This document shows, piece by piece, positions 20,015 to 33,571 of a stretch of 64,000 nucleotides of DNA. Source of the DNA: Clostridia bacterium (GTDB lineage: Bacteria; Bacillota; Clostridia; Monoglobales; Monoglobaceae); the NCBI GenBank assembly GCA_017397725.1, contig JAFQIA010000028.1:124001-188000 (forward strand), written 5' to 3'. The notes beneath the pieces are model-generated. The model was not told where the DNA came from and made no database searches. It saw only the letters and a list, made by a program, of their open reading frames with translations. How positions within the stretch are numbered: the stretch's first letter is position 1; each line of letters starts with the position of its first letter. The translations under genes and the position numbers were made by a program.

Positions 20015-20349
20015 CAGGAACCCCGCTGGCTCGTTGGTTCGATAATGGTTTAGACGCCATATATAAAAATAAGCTTTGCGAAAGCAAAGCAACCACAATC
20101 TCTTCTCTATTCTCTCTTATCTCTTCTCTGGAAACGACAATTTTTAGAGAAGAGTGAAGAGAGAAAAGTGAATCGATAAGAGTACAAAAAGAAACGACAA
20201 CTTCCTGGCGAAAATTGTCGTTTCTTTTTGGGAAAACCGAATGGTTTAGATGCTGTAATTTTCGATTTGCTCTTTGCCTTTCGCGACAAAACGGACATTC
20301 GTTTTACCTCAGAAACTGTCCTCCTCAAGTTGTTCTTGGATTATATGTT
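20015..20349. other. Intergenic region rich in inverted repeats; left edge of the accessory island
   Basis: No gene seen. It contains a short hairpin (AAGCTTTGC/GCAAAGC near 20072-20090), an imperfect long-range inverted repeat of CTCTTCTCT-like tracts (20100-20180), a strong 15-bp terminator hairpin (20186-20229), and the words GGTTTAGACGCC (20047) and GGTTTAGATGC (20243) that recur at other intergenic sites. CTGGCTCGTTGGTTCG near 20030 resembles part of the 234-bp repeats at 22877 and 27633. Confidence 0.6.
20186..20229. terminator. Strong hairpin terminator between the AraC and AEC genes
   Basis: 15-bp perfect stem (AAAAAGAAACGACAA/TTGTCGTTTCTTTTT) with a 14-base loop and T-rich ends in both directions. 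It is placed to end the plus-strand AraC transcript and the minus-strand AEC transcript. Confidence 0.75.
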
Positions 20350-22638: not shown

Positions 22639-22698
22639 ATTAGTCTCCTTGTCTAGAACTTAATTCTACTTAAATTCTTTTGTGTGGAACATATTTCT

Positions 22699-22727
22699 AT
22701 CGTATCATAATTATTTCTGTTTGTCAA
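22699..22727 (-). promoter_or_regulatory. Promoter of the rpiR operon
   Basis: TTGACA (22727-22722), 17-base spacer, TACGAT (22704-22699) on the minus strand, about 60 bases before the regulator ATG. Confidence 0.6.
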
Positions 22728-22758
22728 GATAAAATCATGTCTATAATAACTATTCTCT

Positions 22759-22870
22759 CTGGTTCAAAACCGCATGGCATCTACCCTTTTGTTTTCAAAA
22801 CTGATTTTCCCCAAAAAGCCTCAAGCCATAGAAAAAAGCGAACAATTCAGATGACATCTAAATTGTTCGC
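22759..22870. repeat. Diverged repeat preceding repeat copy A
   Basis: The stretch starting TCTGGTTCAAAACCGC and ending with AAAAAGCGAACAATT is a diverged version (roughly 70% by eye, with gaps) of 27371-27460. In this copy it ends in an inverted repeat AGCGAACAATT...AATTGTTCGCT (22837-22871) that can form a hairpin next to the 234-bp repeat. Confidence 0.6.
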
Positions 22871-22876
22871 TTCTTT

Positions 22877-23110
22877 TGGCTCCTCCAGTTGGACTCGAAC
22901 CACGTCCGTTTGCAACATCAATTCAATTGCGCCGTCAAGCGGCTTATTTCATTGTGTTGCGGCACCACCTCCGCGCTCCCTGTTTCGTCCACCGGACGCC
23001 GTCGCTGCTCGGTCCCCTGCGTCCGCAAGCGGCTCGCAGGTTCGTTGGTTCGGTTTCACCGAAAAGAAAATCACAAAGGGATACACATTTGTGTATCCTT
23101 TTGTGATTGG
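22877..23110. repeat. 234-bp direct repeat, copy A (contains tRNA-Asn 3' fragment)
   Basis: Near-identical to 27633-27866, with only two substitutions seen by eye (C/G near 23000 and T/C near 23100). The first 24 bases equal the 3' end of tRNA-Asn (minus sense), and the last 40 bases form the same long hairpin that terminates tRNA-Asn in copy B. There is no tRNA body here. It holds no credible gene: all frames are short, and the same spurious peptides would recur in both copies. Confidence 0.9.
23069..23108 (-). terminator. Long hairpin inside repeat copy A
   Basis: 19-base arms (AATCACAAAGGGATACACA and its complement, one mismatch or G-U pair) followed on the minus strand by a T-rich tract. 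Same structure as the tRNA-Asn terminator, here without a tRNA in front. Confidence 0.6.
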
Positions 23111-23332
23111 AAGAGCCGAATGGTTTAGATGCCACCTCTGAAAGTCTTATTTTATCAAGCTTTTTAAGGTTCGATCCAATATGTTCAAAACAAGCGAATG
23201 AGACGGAGGATTTAGATGCATTTCGCTAAACTTCAGTCGAATCAAAAATTTGTGGGGGCAATATTCAAATGAAAAACAATCTCCAAGGAGTCTAGATACC
23301 ATAATTGGATTTATACGAATCAAGACTGTTCG
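23111..23332. other. Noncoding stretch after repeat copy A
   Basis: No gene recognised. It holds CCGAATGGTTTAGATGCC (23116-23133) and GGATTTAGATGC (23208-23219), members of a short motif family that recurs in intergenic DNA of this window. Confidence 0.5.
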
Positions 23333-23605
23333 TTAGAATTTCCATTCCTTCTCACTTGCTCCGTCATATCCAATCAGCCACGCCGGCTTCAAATCTACCA
23401 AAGAGTGTCCTGAGCTTGTACTGTTTGAACCTACCATAATGAGAGCAGCAATATCTGCAGTTCCTTCTTGTTCATTTCACGGTCTACAGAATCCCTTACA
23501 ACATCAGACAGAGAATGATGAAACTGTGTTCCGTGATATCTGATTGCCGCGTCAATCTCGCGTTTTCCTACTTCAAAAACTATCCCTTCATCAAAAGTTC
23601 CATAA
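23333..23605 (-). pseudogene. Frameshifted C-terminal remnant of an unrecognised gene
   Basis: Read on the minus strand directly after the isomerase gene, one frame gives a coherent stretch FEVGKREIDAAIRYHGTQF then HHSLSDVVRDSVDREMNKK. Coherence then continues only after a one-base frame change as ADIAALIMVGSNS, GHSLVDLKPAWLIGYDG and EKEWKF, ending at a TAA at 23333. Two linked frames of protein-like composition suggest a gene broken by a frameshift and missing its front part. The family is not recognised. It follows the isomerase/GH28 genes on the same strand, so it may once have been the third gene of that operon. Confidence 0.5.
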
Positions 23606-24611
23606 CATACATTTCAAGCGCTTCGTAGTCTCGTTCTTTTACACACTTTTCTTGGAAATCATAGTCAAATCTTGCAGCTTTTTCTTCAAGCATTTTTGCA
23701 ATCTTAAGACTGTTCTCAAGGTGCTTATAACTTCCCTCTTGTTTCTCGGTTCTCATAACCTTAACATCAAGGCCTATGTATTCTCCATTTTCGCCAAAGC
23801 CATTCTCCATAAGAACCTTCATCTGATTGAATGCTGTACGAAGATTTTCAACACCAAAGCTCTTATCCTGGTCAAATTTCATTCCGTTCTGGTCATTCAA
23901 ATGCACACCCCAAAGTTTGCCCATAGCCATTGCAAAACCTATTTCACTTGCCGGATCAAGTCCTGCAAGCATCGCATGAGCTGATTCTAAAAGTCCGCCT
24001 ACTCTTGACGGATCATCAGAAGCTGCTGAAATTGCCATTGCATGTCCCAAAGTAGGACAAACGCTTCTGTCAACAGGCTCGTTTGGTTTAGTCTCAATCA
24101 TAATTTTTATGTTTTTATCATAAGCAAGCATTTTATTAATTGCATCTATTAATAGTTTTGTAGATTCAACCGGACTTTTGCTTTCATAACAAATAGTTCC
24201 TTCTCTTGCAAGCCACAAAACAAGCTTGTCACAACCTAATGCATTTGCAATATCAATACTTCTGTATGCACGCCACATAGCAAAATCGCGGTCTTCCTTG
24301 CTGTTTGAAGTAAATCCACCATCTATTGTATGTGGATCCATCCAAAGTCTTGGAGCAACAAACTCAGCTTTTAAATCATACTTATCCAAAAGTGCCTTTA
24401 CCTTTTTTGCCTCTGCGATGATTTCTGCTTCTGTCATGTTATTCATATTAGGCACAGCGTCGTCATCGTGGAACTGGATTGCATCAAATCCCATTTCTTT
24501 AAATGTCTTGATCTTTTCCTCAAACGAAATTGTTTCTCTTGTTGCAGGACCGTATGCGTCTGCTCCCTCGTGAACATTCCATGGTCCTACTGAATACTTA
24601 AATCTACTCAT
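23580..24611 (-). CDS. Xylose-isomerase-like TIM-barrel protein
   Basis: 343 residues with actinobacterial-type xylose isomerase signatures in order: FHDDD (catalytic His), DGGFTSN, WLAREGT, ETKPNEP (metal and substrate lysine region), PTLGHA and HLNDQNGMKFDQD (metal ligands). The C-terminal arm is shorter than in Streptomyces-type enzymes (about 388 residues), with roughly 45 residues apparently absent between LEEKAARF and the final helices. The reaction is probably an aldose-ketose isomerisation, substrate uncertain. AAAGGAAG lies before the ATG. It is 27 bases downstream of the GH28-like gene. Confidence 0.8.
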   Translation of the reverse strand: MSRFKYSVGPWNVHEGADAYGPATRETISFEEKIKTFKEMGFDAIQFHDDDAVPNMNNMTEAEIIAEAKKVKALLDKYDLKAEFVAPRLWMDPHTIDGGFTSNSKEDRDFAMWRAYRSIDIANALGCDKLVLWLAREGTICYESKSPVESTKLLIDAINKMLAYDKNIKIMIETKPNEPVDRSVCPTLGHAMAISAASDDPSRVGGLLESAHAMLAGLDPASEIGFAMAMGKLWGVHLNDQNGMKFDQDKSFGVENLRTAFNQMKVLMENGFGENGEYIGLDVKVMRTEKQEGSYKHLENSLKIAKMLEEKAARFDYDFQEKCVKERDYEALEMYVMELLMKG

Positions 24612-24638
24612 TTTTTTACTTCCTTTCTTTATGTTAAT

Positions 24639-26024
24639 TTAAATAGATTTCGTAAAGAATGGTTTATCCGCTTCTTTTACTTCTTTTGCATTGCCGCAAT
24701 TTACATTATTAAGTACAATCTTTCCATCTGACCATTTTTTGATAATACAGTCACCTTTATAGTTCGAAACAGAAAGATTTTCAAAAACAACGCTATCATA
24801 GTTGCAAATATGAACCAAGTCAATATCTTCATAACCTTCTCGCATTGTGATTTCAACATTTTTTAGCTTTAATGTAACAGGAACATTTTTGTCTCCATAA
24901 GCAGTAATAGGCATACTTACGCTTTCTGCTTTTATATTACGAAATTCAATACTTTCAAGTGGTCTGTTTTTCTGCCATGTTTCATTACCGGAATAATTAT
25001 AGTGCAAAAATCTGTCTGCCATATCTATCGTACAATCCGAAATAATAATATTCCCCGGCTGAGTATTTATCGGCATACTGTAATCAGCATAATAAGTAAA
25101 TGCACTGAGCATATTATTTCTTGCTCCCTTTGTAGGTGACGGTGCCGAATTTTTCTTATCTTCAAGAGATATACTTCCTCTGAAGCAAAATTTGCCCGGA
25201 CCGTATATATGGCACTTCTCAACCAACATATTTGTTCCGCCAAATCTCATCGCACTACAACTTGAATTCAAAACGCAATCTGAGATGTATACGTTAACAT
25301 TCCCAAAGCCTGCAATACAATCATCGCCTGTATAAAACTCTGAATTTGTAATCTTCAGGTTACGGCACGCAAAAGCATCAAATCCGTCATGACCTGCAAG
25401 AGCAGTTATTCCATCTACATCTATGTTGTCACAGAATAATAATTCATGCGCCCAATTACCCGTATTCTGAATTGTATAGCCTTTAAGCTCAATATTTCGA
25501 CAGTTAAAAAATGTTATTCCATGAGGTCCGCGATAGTTTTCTTCAGAACCAACATCATCAAAACAGTTACATCCGTCAATCACAGATCCTACCTCTCCGA
25601 TAATTTTTATGTTTTCTGCATCTATTGCGCGGATAACCGCATTATTCCAGCGACTTCCCGGGATCCTTCTAAATCTGTATTCAGGTTTATTTTCTACATA
25701 TTCAGTTTCCCCGTGTATTGTTGAAAGATGAACATAAGGGGCATCTGTTATCTGGTCTTCCCTCAGTGGCTCAACTTTATCATTTTTATAATTGAAATAA
25801 TCTTCAGGATTAGTACTTCCTAAAAGCTTCGCCCCCTCAAGAAGATGAAGCGTTATGTTGCTTCTTATTCTGATATCACCAATATGGTATTCTCCCTCAG
25901 GGATTTCCACCACTCCACCGCCTTTTTCAAAGCAGTAATCAATAGCATCCTGAACAGCTTTGGTTTGTAGGGCTTCACTTTCTGCCTTCAAGCCAAAATC
26001 TTTTGCACTGACTGTTATCTTCAT
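24639..26024 (-). CDS. GH28-like right-handed beta-helix protein (polygalacturonase-type)
   Basis: 461 residues without signal peptide. An N-terminal entry segment (VQDAIDYCFEKGGGVVEIPEGEYHIG) typical of pectate-type beta-helices is followed by many short repeats. The GH28-like active-site aspartates appear as GHDGFDAF and TGDDCIAGFG, but the usual GH28 histidine motif (GHG) is not clear, so activity is uncertain. Cytoplasmic location suggests action on imported oligogalacturonides or similar. First gene of an operon with the isomerase; divergent AraC gene at 26148. AAGGGGTG precedes the ATG. Confidence 0.78.
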   Translation of the reverse strand: MKITVSAKDFGLKAESEALQTKAVQDAIDYCFEKGGGVVEIPEGEYHIGDIRIRSNITLHLLEGAKLLGSTNPEDYFNYKNDKVEPLREDQITDAPYVHLSTIHGETEYVENKPEYRFRRIPGSRWNNAVIRAIDAENIKIIGEVGSVIDGCNCFDDVGSEENYRGPHGITFFNCRNIELKGYTIQNTGNWAHELLFCDNIDVDGITALAGHDGFDAFACRNLKITNSEFYTGDDCIAGFGNVNVYISDCVLNSSCSAMRFGGTNMLVEKCHIYGPGKFCFRGSISLEDKKNSAPSPTKGARNNMLSAFTYYADYSMPINTQPGNIIISDCTIDMADRFLHYNYSGNETWQKNRPLESIEFRNIKAESVSMPITAYGDKNVPVTLKLKNVEITMREGYEDIDLVHICNYDSVVFENLSVSNYKGDCIIKKWSDGKIVLNNVNCGNAKEVKEADKPFFTKSI

Positions 26025-26147
26025 ATTAAATTCACCCCTTGAAAAATATATTGTATTATTATATAATATAATATATCACAATATTATAGGTTATTCTAAC
26101 ACCATACAAGCCAAAAATATAAATATATTGAACAAGGCGAGGTTTTT

Positions 26148-26969
26148 ATGAATAAGACAAGTTTAAAAGAAACTTATGCACAACATAAAATTGGCAAGTT
26201 GCAGATGAATATATATGAATCAAGCAACGACATTCCATATCATTGGCACGATGAATACGAATTCCTTTATGTAACAAGTGGCGAATGCGAGTGTATCATA
26301 AACGGAAAAAGCATTATTGTGCAAAAAGGTCAGGCAATCCTTATAAGCGGTGGTGAGCTTCACACCCTTAATCAAAACACTTCCGGACAATTTTTTGCTG
26401 TGGTTTTTCATCCATATATTATTTTTGGAACAGAATTCAACAATTTTTTCTCAAAAAAAATATCATATAACAGAATTTTTGAAGAAACTTCCTCATCCGG
26501 TAAACAAATAACTCAACTTCTTAATCTTATTCACTCATACTTTTACAACCAGTTTTACGGCTTTGAGTTAACATTAAAAGCTTTGATTATCGAAATTTTC
26601 GGAATAATATATGAACACCGGCTTTATTCATTTAAGGAGAAAAAAGATATAAACGACTTTGATAAATTTGCCGATATTATCGAATACATTCACGACAATT
26701 TTGCAGAAAAGATGTCCCTTGATGATGTCGCAAATTATGCTCATTTCAGCAAATCTTATTTAATCAGATTATTAAAGAAAAATACAGGTAAAACCTTTAG
26801 TACATATCTAAACTGTTATAGAATATACAGAGCAATTGATATGCTTGAAAATACAGACAAAAATATCTTGGAAATTTCCGAGGAATGTGGATTCGGTAAT
26901 GTTGCATATTTCATCAAAATTTTTAAACAGAATACAGGAATTACTCCTCACAAATACCGTAAGAATTAA
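26148..26969 (+). CDS. AraC family transcriptional regulator
   Basis: 273 residues: N-terminal cupin (IPYHWHDEYEFLYVTSGECE and following KGQAILISGGELHTL) and C-terminal AraC double helix-turn-helix from about residue 170 (MSLDDVANYAHFSKSYLIRLL; ILEISEECGFGNVAYFIKIFK). An AGGCGAGG-like site precedes the ATG. The 123-bp AT-rich divergent spacer is shared with the GH28-like gene, so it probably activates GH28-isomerase expression in response to a pectin- or xylan-derived sugar. Confidence 0.9.
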   Translation: MNKTSLKETYAQHKIGKLQMNIYESSNDIPYHWHDEYEFLYVTSGECECIINGKSIIVQKGQAILISGGELHTLNQNTSGQFFAVVFHPYIIFGTEFNNFFSKKISYNRIFEETSSSGKQITQLLNLIHSYFYNQFYGFELTLKALIIEIFGIIYEHRLYSFKEKKDINDFDKFADIIEYIHDNFAEKMSLDDVANYAHFSKSYLIRLLKKNTGKTFSTYLNCYRIYRAIDMLENTDKNILEISEECGFGNVAYFIKIFKQNTGITPHKYRKN

Positions 26970-27045
26970 CAGTCTAATTTTTATGATAACGAATCTTAAT
27001 GGATGCCTAAAATACCAAAAATCCAGTAATATTAGTAAAACTTTT

Positions 27046-27109
27046 CAGAAAAAAATAAGTGCAGGTAATCAACTATATAAATACCCAAATTACCTACACT
27101 TATATTGTA
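27046..27109 (-). terminator. Inverted repeat resembling a minus-strand terminator
   Basis: 15-base arms (ATAAGTGCAGGTAAT and ATTACCTACACTTAT, one mismatch) separated by about 20 bases. On the minus strand it is followed by a run of T. No intact gene lies upstream on that strand, so it may be the surviving end of a lost gene or element. Confidence 0.5.
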
Positions 27110-27370
27110 CCCCGGGCTGTCTTACCAAACAAGTGATGCAACCCATTATTTATTTTATCAATTTATTTGGACGTTTAACAAATAAAATAACAATTATATA
27201 ATCATAAAAAATTAATATTGTTACAATCTACAAGTCTAAAAATTTCATATAATCCTTTAATAATCCACATATAAACCGCTTATCATACATTCATCAGACA
27301 ATAATAACTTACCGTGTTCTTTCTTATCTTGAAAATCTACTTAAAAAATGCAGTGCCGTTAGTTCAAGTC

Positions 27371-27460
27371 TGGTTCAAAACCACTTATCTTCTCCCATTT
27401 ATTTCAAAGTTGATTTTTGCAAGAAGCCCTTAAAACCACGGAAAAGCGAACAATTTAGAT
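27371..27460. repeat. Diverged repeat preceding repeat copy B
   Basis: Begins TCTGGTTCAAAACCAC and ends GGAAAAGCGAACAATTTAG, matching 22759-22850 with gaps. It shows that the duplicated unit around the tRNA-Asn 3' end originally extended beyond the 234 well-conserved bases. Confidence 0.6.
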
Positions 27461-27599
27461 GCAAGTTAAACAAGTTTAGCGTTATGATGAAACCTTACGG
27501 TTTTAGTTATGATATATTTGCCCAAAAAAGCATTGACGAAGTCAATTCATAACTTGCGAAGCAATCTAAACTGATAACTTGCCGTAGGCAAATATAACT

Positions 27600-27632
27600 G
27601 AAAAAGCACTTGCAAATTGCAAGTGCTTTTTC
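27600..27632. terminator. Hairpin beside repeat copy B
   Basis: Perfect 13-bp stem (AAAAGCACTTGCA/TGCAAGTGCTTTT) with an AAT loop and T-rich end, directly adjoining the left edge of repeat copy B. Confidence 0.7.
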
Positions 27633-27866
27633 TGGCTCCTCCAGTTGGACTCGAACCACGTCCGTTTGCAACATCAATTCAATTGCGCCGTCAAGCGGCT
27701 TATTTCATTGTGTTGCGGCACCACCTCCGCGCTCCCTGTTTCGTCCACCGGACGCGGTCGCTGCTCGGTCCCCTGCGTCCGCAAGCGGCTCGCAGGTTCG
27801 TTGGTTCGGTTTCACCGAAAAGAAAATCACAAAGGGATACACATTTGTGTATCCCTTTGTGATTGG
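27633..27866. repeat. 234-bp direct repeat, copy B (abuts intact tRNA-Asn)
   Basis: Matches 22877-23110 at all but two positions by eye. Its first 24 bases (27633-27656) duplicate the 3' end of the tRNA-Asn at 27864-27887 exactly. A 231-bp cassette is therefore bounded by two copies of the tRNA 3' end, as left by integration at a tRNA attachment site. No integrase is present. Confidence 0.9.
27821..27863 (-). terminator. Terminator of tRNA-Asn
   Basis: Immediately after the tRNA CCA on the minus strand: 19-base arms AATCACAAAGGGATACACA and complement, then TTTTCTTTTC. It lies inside repeat copy B. Confidence 0.8.
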
Positions 27867-27939
27867 CTCCTCCAGTTGGACTCGAACAAAAGACCCTGAG
27901 GTTAACAGCCGCATGCTCTACCGACTGAGCTATAGAGGA
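27864..27939 (-). tRNA. tRNA-Asn (GTT)
   Basis: 76 nt including encoded CCA. Acceptor TCCTCTA pairs with TGGAGGA (one G-U or mismatch at the inner end). The D-arm is GCTCAGTCGGTAGAGC, the anticodon loop CTGTTAA has anticodon GTT, and the T-arm has GTTCGAGTCC. The anticodon stem has one C-T mismatch as read (TGCGG/CCTCA). It resembles other bacterial tRNA-Asn genes closely. The 3' half is duplicated at 27633 and 22877. Confidence 0.93.
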
Positions 27940-28040
27940 ATATGTATTTTAGCATATGTAAGTTACGAAAAAATATACCAGCTTCGCAACAAAAAATATA
28001 TTATACCAAATTCTTCAAAATGTCAACCCCTTTTTGAAAG

Positions 28041-28070
28041 AAAAAACGAACTTTTCAAAAGTTCGTTTCT
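28041..28070 (-). terminator. Terminator of pflB-pflA
   Basis: Stem AAACGAACTTTT with its complement GAAAAGTTCGTTT, followed on the minus strand by a T run. The hairpin overlaps the last codons and stop of pflA. Confidence 0.75.
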
Positions 28071-28783
28071 ATGAGTGCCTTATTTAATTTTTCCTGCCAC
28101 TGGGCAACCTTTTTTCTGTCCATTGCCGGAACCCCCTCCAACGGATAAGGCATCCCCATTGCCTCGTATTTCTTCACACCCATGGTGTGATAAGGCAAAA
28201 GCTCAATCTTTTTCACATTGGGGATTTGCTTTGCAGCCTCCCACAAATCCTGAATATACCCATCGTTATCATTGATTCCGGGGATAATCACCGCCCGCAG
28301 CCAGACATCCACCGGATGCTCTTTCAGCTGAGAAACAAAAAATTCATATCTTCCTATGGAAATTCCGGTTAATTCCCGATACTTTTCTTCATTGGTATGC
28401 TTGATATCCAGAAGCAGTAAATCCGCCAGATCCAAAATCTCACCGAAATCTCCCATACCACCGCCGGCAGTATCAATCGCCGTATGGATTCCCTCTGCCT
28501 TGCACAGCTGCAGCATTTCGGTCAAAAATTCTTTCTGCAACAAGGGTTCACCACCAGAAAAGGTCACCCCTCCCCCGCTACTTTCAAAATAAGGGCGAAA
28601 CCGCAGAATTTTGGCAAACAAATCCTTTGCCTCTACCTCTTCGCCCACTTGAAGTTTCCATGTGTCCGGATTGTGGCAATACTGGCAACGCATGGCACAG
28701 CCCTGCATAAAGACCACGCATCTTACACCGGGGCCGTCAACCATTCCCATGCTCTCGATGGAATGAATATATCCTTTTGCCAT
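28055..28783 (-). CDS. pflA: Pyruvate formate-lyase activating enzyme (radical SAM)
   Basis: 242 residues. It installs the glycyl radical on PflB. The radical SAM motif is C-X3-C-X2-C in GCAMRCQYCHN near residue 30, preceded by the activase signature GPGVRCVVFMQG; FSGGEPLLQ follows. The start at 28783 (MAKGYIHSIESMGMVDG) has AAGGAGTGG upstream; the frame open to 28882 lacks family similarity. It lies 61 bases downstream of pflB, as usual. Confidence 0.96.
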   Translation of the reverse strand: MAKGYIHSIESMGMVDGPGVRCVVFMQGCAMRCQYCHNPDTWKLQVGEEVEAKDLFAKILRFRPYFESSGGGVTFSGGEPLLQKEFLTEMLQLCKAEGIHTAIDTAGGGMGDFGEILDLADLLLLDIKHTNEEKYRELTGISIGRYEFFVSQLKEHPVDVWLRAVIIPGINDNDGYIQDLWEAAKQIPNVKKIELLPYHTMGVKKYEAMGMPYPLEGVPAMDRKKVAQWQEKLNKALIETNF

Positions 28784-31300: not shown

Positions 31301-32389
31301 ATGAAGCGTAAAATCACGGAAATGTCCGTCTTTGAATTTTTTCTGTGTATGTTTGTGATTCTCATTCATCTGCTTTCGGAGGGCGTTGATGCGCTTCCAA
31401 AGTGGAGCTTTTGGTCTGTTCTTTTTGCGTCCCTGACACGGCTTGCCACCTTTGCAGTTCCCGGCTTTGTGTTCACCAGTGCCGTCAAGCTGTTCTACAA
31501 ATACGGCGATACCCCGCAATTTTCCTATCACAAATTTTTGTGGGGGCGTTGCCGCAAGATTGTTTTTCCCTATATCCTTGCAACCTTGATTTATTATGCC
31601 GTTTTCGTCTGGATGCTCGGCATCTATCGTTTTGATTTGGGAGATCTCTTGGGCTTCCTGATCAGCGGAAATCTATCGGCACAATTTTACTTTGTCATAT
31701 TGATTACTCAGTTCTATCTGTTGATGCCCATCTGGCTCGCCTTCAGTCATAACAAAAGCAAAGTTTTTGCGGCGACTCTTCTGCTGGCATCCTTACTCAT
31801 CACCATTTTCTTTCGAATGTCTTTCCCACACACGGCAAGCATTGCAAAGATTTTCCCGTCCTACTTGATTTTCTGGGTGACAGGAATTTATGCAGGTCTT
31901 CACTATGAGGAATTTTCCGAGCAAATTTCCAAACACAAACCCCTTATTTACATTGGCTGGCTCTGCCTGGCGGTTGCCCATTGCATTCTCTCCTATATGC
32001 AGTTTGGCGGACTGATTGCTTACCGCTTTGCCCCGATGATCGTGGTGTTGTTCTGCTTTTTCTCGATTTTCGGTTTTTATTCCTACGCCAAGGAGCTTAC
32101 CATTTCCTTAGAACGGCGTGGAAAAGGCCTGCTTACCAGTATCTCGCAGGCCTCCTATGACATCTATTTGATTCATTGTTTGATTATCATTGTTCTCTAT
32201 CGGATTCTTGCCGAGATGGAAATCGACCATATTCTGGCTCGTTTCGGCATTGCCTTTGTGGTAACCTACGGTCTATCCATTATCTTTTGTGTGCTCAAGG
32301 CAACCCTGTTTACCAACCTGAAAGCCAAGCGGTTGCGCGCCTCAGCAACAAGAGCCCGCAAGATGGCCCGTAGAAAACGCTATCTGTAA
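31301..32389 (+). CDS. Acyltransferase family membrane protein (Acyltransf_3 type)
   Basis: 362 residues with about ten predicted membrane helices, starting FEFFLCMFVILIHLLSEG. That opening histidine-containing segment is typical of the acyltransferase_3 family, which O-acylates sugars or cell-wall polymers; substrate unknown. The ATG at 31301 has AAAGGA upstream; an in-frame TTG two codons earlier is less likely. The last 48 bases overlap the 3' end of the convergent flavoprotein gene, and the basic C-terminal tail (ARKMARRKRYL) comes from the overlap. Confidence 0.85.
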   Translation: MKRKITEMSVFEFFLCMFVILIHLLSEGVDALPKWSFWSVLFASLTRLATFAVPGFVFTSAVKLFYKYGDTPQFSYHKFLWGRCRKIVFPYILATLIYYAVFVWMLGIYRFDLGDLLGFLISGNLSAQFYFVILITQFYLLMPIWLAFSHNKSKVFAATLLLASLLITIFFRMSFPHTASIAKIFPSYLIFWVTGIYAGLHYEEFSEQISKHKPLIYIGWLCLAVAHCILSYMQFGGLIAYRFAPMIVVLFCFFSIFGFYSYAKELTISLERRGKGLLTSISQASYDIYLIHCLIIIVLYRILAEMEIDHILARFGIAFVVTYGLSIIFCVLKATLFTNLKAKRLRASATRARKMARRKRYL

Positions 32390-33571
32390 ATTGAATCCAC
32401 CGGTATAGGCATCCACATCCAGAATCTCTCCGGCAAAGTAAAGACCGGAAATCAGTTTGGATTCCATGGTCGAGGGATTGACCTCCTTGACGCTGACTCC
32501 GCCGGATGTGATAATCGCCTGTTCAATCGGGCAGAATCCGGTAATGTGAAATTCCAGATTTTTTAAGATTTTCCCAAGTAAGCTCCGTTCCTCTTTGGTG
32601 ACGGAGTTTACTTTTTTATAAGGGTCAATTCCGCTGATGGCAATCACCTCCGGAATCAAACGAATGGGTAAAAGTGCACCCAAGCTGTTCCGAAAATCCC
32701 GATTCAGGTTTTTCTGGAAATCCCGCAAAATCCGCTCATCCAACTGCTTTTCATCCAGCGCCGGCTTTAAGTCCAGTACCAGTCGATATTCTTCCTTGCC
32801 CATATTACGCATATGGGCACTGGCACTCAGCACCGTAGGTCCGGTCAGTCCAAAGTGTGCAAACATCATCTCGCCAAAGTCGGCGTAAACCTTTTTCCCT
32901 CTTCCATCCAGAACAGTAAGTGCAACATTTTTTAAGGAAAGTCCCGCAAGCGCAGAAACCCAATCCTCCTCCACCTCTAAAGGCACCAAGGAGGGACGGA
33001 TGTCAGTAATGGTATGACCAAAATTTTCCGCAAAGGTATAGCCGTCACCGGTGGAACCGGTTTTCTGGTAAGAAAGTCCTCCGGTTGCCAGAATCACACG
33101 ATCGGCAAAAATCTTGCCACGCTTTTCGGTGAGAACCCCGCAAACAGCACCATCCTCCGCCAGAATATCATCCACTCGGTCGCAAATCAGTTCCACATTG
33201 TTTTGAATGAGAAATTGACGCATCGCCGTCACAATATCCTGACTTTTGTCCGAAACAGGGAAGACCCGCTCTCCCCGTTCTACCTTGAGCGGAACGCCTA
33301 AGGATTCAAAAAACGCCATGGTCTGTTGATTGGTAAAACCATAAAAGGCGCTATACAAAAAGGAGCCGTTGGTGGGAACATTCTGAATCAAATCCTGCAC
33401 ATCCTCACAGGCATTGGTCACATTGCAACGGCCTTTTCCTGTAATCATCAGCTTTTTGCCCAGCATCTTATTCTGTTCTATCAGTTTGACCTTATGTCCC
33501 CGCTGGGCTGCAACACCTGCCGCCATCATTCCGGCAGGACCGCCGCCAATGACAATCACCTGCTTACTCAT
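32342..33571 (-). CDS. HI0933/YhiN-type NAD(P)/FAD-dependent oxidoreductase
   Basis: 409-residue flavoprotein. The N-terminal dinucleotide-binding motif is GGGPAGMMAAGVAAQRG, followed by the family stretch GKKLMITGKGRCNVTNAC. ATGGLSYQKTGSTGDGY lies in the middle, with a C-terminal GGFNLQIAFSTGHLAG FAD segment. The reaction in this family is not settled (bile-acid dehydrogenase BaiN is one relative). It is convergent with the acyltransferase gene. Confidence 0.9.
   Translation of the reverse strand: MSKQVIVIGGGPAGMMAAGVAAQRGHKVKLIEQNKMLGKKLMITGKGRCNVTNACEDVQDLIQNVPTNGSFLYSAFYGFTNQQTMAFFESLGVPLKVERGERVFPVSDKSQDIVTAMRQFLIQNNVELICDRVDDILAEDGAVCGVLTEKRGKIFADRVILATGGLSYQKTGSTGDGYTFAENFGHTITDIRPSLVPLEVEEDWVSALAGLSLKNVALTVLDGRGKKVYADFGEMMFAHFGLTGPTVLSASAHMRNMGKEEYRLVLDLKPALDEKQLDERILRDFQKNLNRDFRNSLGALLPIRLIPEVIAISGIDPYKKVNSVTKEERSLLGKILKNLEFHITGFCPIEQAIITSGGVSVKEVNPSTMESKLISGLYFAGEILDVDAYTGGFNLQIAFSTGHLAGSCC

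Follow-up and report, generated by a model that had tools for sequence, protein, structure and literature searches.

Two near-identical repeats lie within the window, a 64,000 nt stretch of DNA from a Clostridia bacterium. Copy 1 (positions 22877-23110) and copy 2 (27633-27866) are in the same orientation and spaced by 4,756 bp. Direct comparison confirmed the count made by eye in the first-pass annotation; 232 of 234 positions are identical. The mismatches fall at 23000 (C) and 27756 (G), and at 23099 (T) and 27855 (C). The match can be extended to 242 bp at 98% identity (22869-23110 and 27625-27866). It was also correct that the repeats are noncoding and carry tRNA-Asn 3' ends, which form the minus-strand end of both. 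The tRNA-Asn gene itself adjoins copy 2 only. A count of further copies had been proposed. We searched the 1.74 Mb, 29-contig assembly with the repeat; the matches (E-values of 1.9e-119 and 9.6e-117) are far beyond chance, and no other full copy was found.

Each repeat is more than a duplicated tRNA end; it is a ~230 bp noncoding element. At copy 2, the order along the minus strand is as follows. The tRNA-Asn(GTT) gene (27864-27939) is followed by a terminator-like palindrome (27825-27864), a 19 nt antisense arm (27790-27808), which can pair with intact tRNA-Asn over its bases 39-57 with no more than two mismatches, and a folded core of 111 nt (27662-27772). Next, the tRNA-Asn 3' end is repeated (26 nt, 27633-27658) in the form found in the intact tRNA-Asn genes of relatives, and a terminator-like hairpin (27600-27632) comes last. 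A similar hairpin directly follows the intact tRNA-Asn gene of a congener, G002, where the site is empty. The arrangement of copy 2 recurs in genomes G001, G018, G021 and G024 and on a sister contig, G092:C4. Copy 1 is the same minus-strand unit without the tRNA gene. Its tRNA-Asn 3' end is at 22877-22902, its core at 22906-23016 and its palindrome at 23069-23108. Covariance models were built from nine cores (R1) and, more broadly, from 109 sequences (R2). The 110-position R2 model scores the core of copy 2 at 95.3 bits (E-value 2.2e-25) and that of copy 1 at 86.7 bits. When the window is shuffled, the expected number of core motifs is 0.00.

Several other features were seen nearby. An array of short hairpins follows the terminator (27470-27632), and similar arrays follow tRNA genes in G001, G002, G024 and G183; the tRNA-Gln locus of G183, used as a query, returned 22 matches, many over the hairpin array. 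A 24 bp motif, GCATCTAAACCATTCGGCTCTTCC on the minus strand, stands beside terminators at 23109-23132 and 20230-20253, with six near-copies in G092, three in G000 and two in G001. A gene remnant with frameshifts and stops (23300-23580) adjoins the isomerase gene. Plus-strand open frames of 153-154 aa (22680-23141 and 27610-28074) run antisense through the element and the tRNA end, and would probably be listed as hypothetical proteins in an annotation. A tRNA-Val called by ARAGORN at 32458-32541 lies within a minus-strand open reading frame (32342-33571), has no Rfam support and is probably spurious.

The element belongs to a widespread tRNA-seated family, a membership that the first-pass annotation had missed. 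The unit is likewise found after tRNA-Asn in G001 and, within another genus, in three genomes. Elsewhere, in other genomes, an identical core type follows tRNA-Ser and carries a tRNA-Ser end. With R1, matches were found in 11 of 38 genomes of the source's family and in 24 of 196 Clostridia genomes. With R2, 51 of 291 Clostridia genomes were positive, representing 38 of 180 genera, with 0-13 copies per genome and some copies in tandem. Most complete relatives in the source's family had no copy in either search. A motif scan returned at least 119 genome-contig stretches, nearly all of them from Clostridia among the matches listed, together with 23 viral contigs. Among the matches listed are Faecalibacterium prausnitzii, F. 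longum and Ruminococcus flavefaciens. Most of these stretches were confirmed by the covariance model, and the 23 viral contigs, themselves chosen by motif, gave 26 model matches at E-values of 0.1 or below. One Elusimicrobia contig has the full element layout. Motif matches in Massilia and Verrucomicrobiales contigs looked coding and were discarded as chance. On one prophage-like IMG/VR contig, copies occur at two places, one beside an integrase-like gene, as if a prophage had integrated at an element-bearing tRNA gene.

No Rfam family matched over the core at the gathering threshold, either in the window or across 18 related loci, and permissive searches gave weak matches only, far below gathering scores. 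The repeat had no match among phage and plasmid records. No named family for the element was found in the literature searched or in Rfam. Thus, the family is apparently undescribed.

The core consists of two covarying hairpins, with a conserved motif (GASCGCNNYCNGNGR...AGSGAG) and a 5' GG. In a 109-row alignment, which leans towards structure because it is model-fitted, 96.6% of cells are paired, 20 of 23 pairs are changed on both sides and 722 cells are doubly changed. The covariation score of this alignment is 0.645, compared with 0.172 for shuffled and at most 0.085 for slid alignments. We also examined, in 98 motif hits, the positions that the motif does not constrain. Here, an S-S pair is kept in 95 hits, in two orientations, and two outer pairs are kept in 88 and 80 hits (39 and 41 expected). 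In helix 3, pairs 58-192 and 59-191 covary.

Copies of the element are seated at tRNA genes. A tRNA gene lies within 600 bp of 59 of the 121 distinct copies, always on the same strand and covering 12 isotypes; about half of the copies have none within this distance. In the motif-only set, a tRNA gene is near 31 of 73 copies, compared with 5 of 331 control points taken from those contigs. Two layouts occur. In one, the element is downstream of an intact tRNA gene and carries a copy of the tRNA 3' part. In the other, it is upstream and carries a copy of the 5' part. Hence, because the unit brings a second copy of one tRNA part, an intact tRNA gene stays beside the element. The junctions are mostly in D-, anticodon- or T-loops. 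Left junctions of the 5' type are at tRNA bases 16-21 in 14 of 21 cases and otherwise mostly in or near the anticodon loop; right junctions of the 3' type lie around the T arm and anticodon. Empty and filled sites can be compared within one genus. In G183, tRNA-Gln is directly followed by a terminator and a hairpin array. In G135, ~230 bp of additional DNA, closed by a second tRNA-Gln 3' end, separates tRNA-Gln from a terminator and an array of the G183 type. A similar empty tRNA-Asn site is present in G002. Direct repeats flank 64 of the 121 copies, some perfect over 60-78 bp, and none as strong was found in shuffles. The element also begins at the stop codon of a gene read as guaA in G243, G074 and G187 (loci L330, L341 and L332). 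At the G243 locus, five copies are arranged head to tail with a 114 bp period.

Our preferred reading is that each repeat represents, over ~230 bp, a DNA element of mobile type that has no genes and whose core usually lodges in a loop on the sense strand of a tRNA gene, and that copy 1 was recently copied or homogenised from copy 2. We think this probable. The core might instead be a functional structured RNA, linked to tRNA genes, noncoding, spread with them and kept for its product. The strong covariation is consistent with such an RNA, as is the constant placement of tRNA-proximal copies on the tRNA strand. Furthermore, copy 2 is kept at the same tRNA-Asn gene in several relatives, and the element is more conserved than its neighbours; between G000 and G001 the tRNA-Asn element is 91-92% identical and neighbouring genes are 76% identical, which could reflect selection for function rather than selfish mobility. 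The base pairs argue otherwise. In the model-fitted alignment, the core has 24 G-U and 19 A-C cells among 2,279. Conversely, tRNA acceptor stems at the same loci have 59 G-U and 14 A-C cells among 973 (Fisher p = 0.0055 against the core). Pattern-only positions give about 13 G-U and 8 A-C, which are small counts. Since G-U is no commoner than A-C in the core, the counts, taken from a model-fitted alignment, suggest that the core is selected as a DNA hairpin rather than an RNA. The patchy distribution, with 0-13 copies per genome and none in most complete family relatives, also argues against an RNA product, as does the presence of the element on phage contigs and behind guaA. We consider the RNA explanation unlikely.

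A second alternative sees in these sequences remnants or miniature versions of tyrosine-integrase elements, that is, by-products of prophage or ICE attachment sites with integrases acting in trans. Islands at tRNA genes characteristically leave a restored tRNA gene together with a displaced fragment (PMC4383910). Junctions in the anticodon loop and T-loop fit this explanation, and integrase-like open reading frames, recognised by eye, adjoin four loci. The gene guaA is a genomic-island site, and the position of the element directly after it in three genomes also fits. However, most copies have no adjoining integrase. In addition, a D-loop crossover, as implied by the 14 junctions at tRNA bases 16-21, is not among the subsites described, and 5' fragments are rare in the island database (159 compared with 3760; PMC4383910) but common here (21 compared with 28). 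An origin from integrase elements therefore seems decidedly doubtful.

The history of the two copies can be read from the sister contig. This comparison is between MAG contigs, and G092:C4 may be mis-binned because its bin belongs to another family. Over 30 kb, G092:C4 is colinear with window positions 23075-52976 and 99.6% identical. It has the 4.8 kb segment and an unchanged copy 2. Its tRNA-Asn gene lacks the substitutions of the window, where G>T changes (CCGC>CCTC and TCGTTGG>TCTTTTG) leave part of the T stem unpaired; an intact tRNA-Asn gene is present on contig C1. Copy 1 is absent from G092:C4. Colinearity ends at 23109-23132 (GGAAGAGCCGAATGGTTTAGATGC) and homology on the sister contig ends at the GGAAGAGCC flank, to the left of which are sugar-metabolism genes absent from G000. 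Thus, copy 1 lies at a synteny breakpoint, since the sister has the segment and copy 2 but neither copy 1 nor the same DNA leftward.

The first-pass annotation took 22877-27632 to be a discrete segment that recombination between the repeats could delete or mobilise. Direct repeats of 234 bp that are 99% alike would allow this, and RecA recombination acts routinely on near-identical direct copies at such a spacing of 4.8 kb; excision of 4,756 bp is possible in principle. The insertion of cargo between two element copies is also conceivable, because the flank of copy 1 (22758-22868, minus strand) is genuine tRNA-Asn downstream DNA. Positions 22812-22902 are 79.6% identical to DNA natively lying downstream of the G015 tRNA-Asn gene. 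However, the segment is retained on the sister contig, where copy 1 is missing and other genes come next, so a deletable cassette is not supported and we regard it as very unlikely. The interesting object is the repeat itself. That copy 1 is an artefact of assembly, a chimera formed at the repeat when the MAG was assembled, is highly improbable; synteny with the sister does break exactly at copy 1, but copy 1 differs privately at two positions and is flanked by a hairpin of its own, and decayed elements with the same GGAAGAGCC flank at two G001 loci mean that its junction type exists elsewhere.

The proposal of recent duplication or ongoing gene conversion fared better. It fits two copies that are 99% alike and have homologous flanks that are roughly 75% alike (22758-22855 and 27369-27462, the latter beyond copy 2). 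Given this flank homology and the near-identity of the copies, duplication of the element with its flank predates the present near-identity, which implies later homogenisation or re-copying. One of the two private changes of copy 1, a C>G at 23000, disrupts pair 17-39 of the core, for which 106 of the 107 sequences scored otherwise have C-G.

The mobile-element reading can be put as a series of steps. The core would move as a hairpin of single-stranded DNA, with a putative trans-acting enzyme to cut and join it. Arrival of the element would duplicate the adjoining tRNA end and terminator, and the duplicated end would keep the tRNA functional. Copy 2 would be a long-standing resident at tRNA-Asn. 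Copy 1, now at a rearrangement breakpoint, would owe its sequence to copy 2 through recent copying or homogenisation. More tentatively, the family may form an unrecognised class, in which a ~110 bp folded DNA core invades the loops of many tRNA genes, and sites of the guaA-end type, rescues the tRNA by end duplication and is moved by a putative single-strand-specific enzyme. To our knowledge, long direct repeats with antisense arms are the product of no single known transposition chemistry. Among the neighbour proteins compared, none recurs beside the element as an autonomous partner. Two candidate movers were rejected. A reverse transcriptase, as in group II introns or retrons, was set aside because RVT_1 is present in only 3 of 15 element-bearing genomes. 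RAYT was set aside because a Y1_Tnp match is missing in 4 of the 15 and no core was found beside the Y1 genes examined.

If the mobile-element reading is true, this is a common, apparently uncatalogued repeat family at tRNA genes across gut Clostridia, including cultured F. prausnitzii. Transposition of folded single-stranded DNA into tRNA loops could then be tested on it, and the element would seed near-identical repeats able to drive rearrangement. It could also explain some spurious hypothetical proteins derived from antisense tRNA ends.

Four known systems invite comparison. REP, BIME and REPIN sequences are gene-free, intergenic, multicopy and hairpin-based, and are thought to be moved in trans by TnpA-REP (RAYT) (PMC6006769, PMC3116915). 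The present element shares the first four properties. However, REPs are 21-65 nt long with a GT[AG]G foot, whereas the core here is ~110 nt, has two hairpins, is seated at tRNA genes and comes with a tRNA-end duplicate. The GT[AG]G foot is absent from the core alignments read, and no core lies within 1.5 kb of 10 Y1_Tnp loci. IS200/IS605 elements combine a right-end guide with a terminal tetranucleotide (PMC6006769). Here, the two bases immediately before the right hairpin on its 5' side covary with core-end positions -4 and -3 (helix 3), in a pattern that may resemble such a guide. In contrast to that system, no fixed target tetranucleotide was found, long direct repeats flank the element and tRNA loops are the target. 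An IS200/IS605 derivative would insert without target duplication, whereas 64 of 121 copies here are flanked by direct repeats.

Islands and ICEs at tRNA genes, inserted by tyrosine integrases, restore the tRNA gene and leave a displaced tRNA fragment (PMC4383910), and both features are found here. However, islands carry an integrase, whereas the ~230 bp unit holds no gene; the element is also only ~0.2 kb, with frequent D-loop junctions. The tDNA-island search would miss it because candidates under 2 kb are discarded from the database (PMC4383910). Integron attC sites are DNA folded on one strand, with structure kept while sequence varies. The present element resembles them in its putative one-strand folding, conserved structure and variable sequence, and differs in its seating at tRNA genes.
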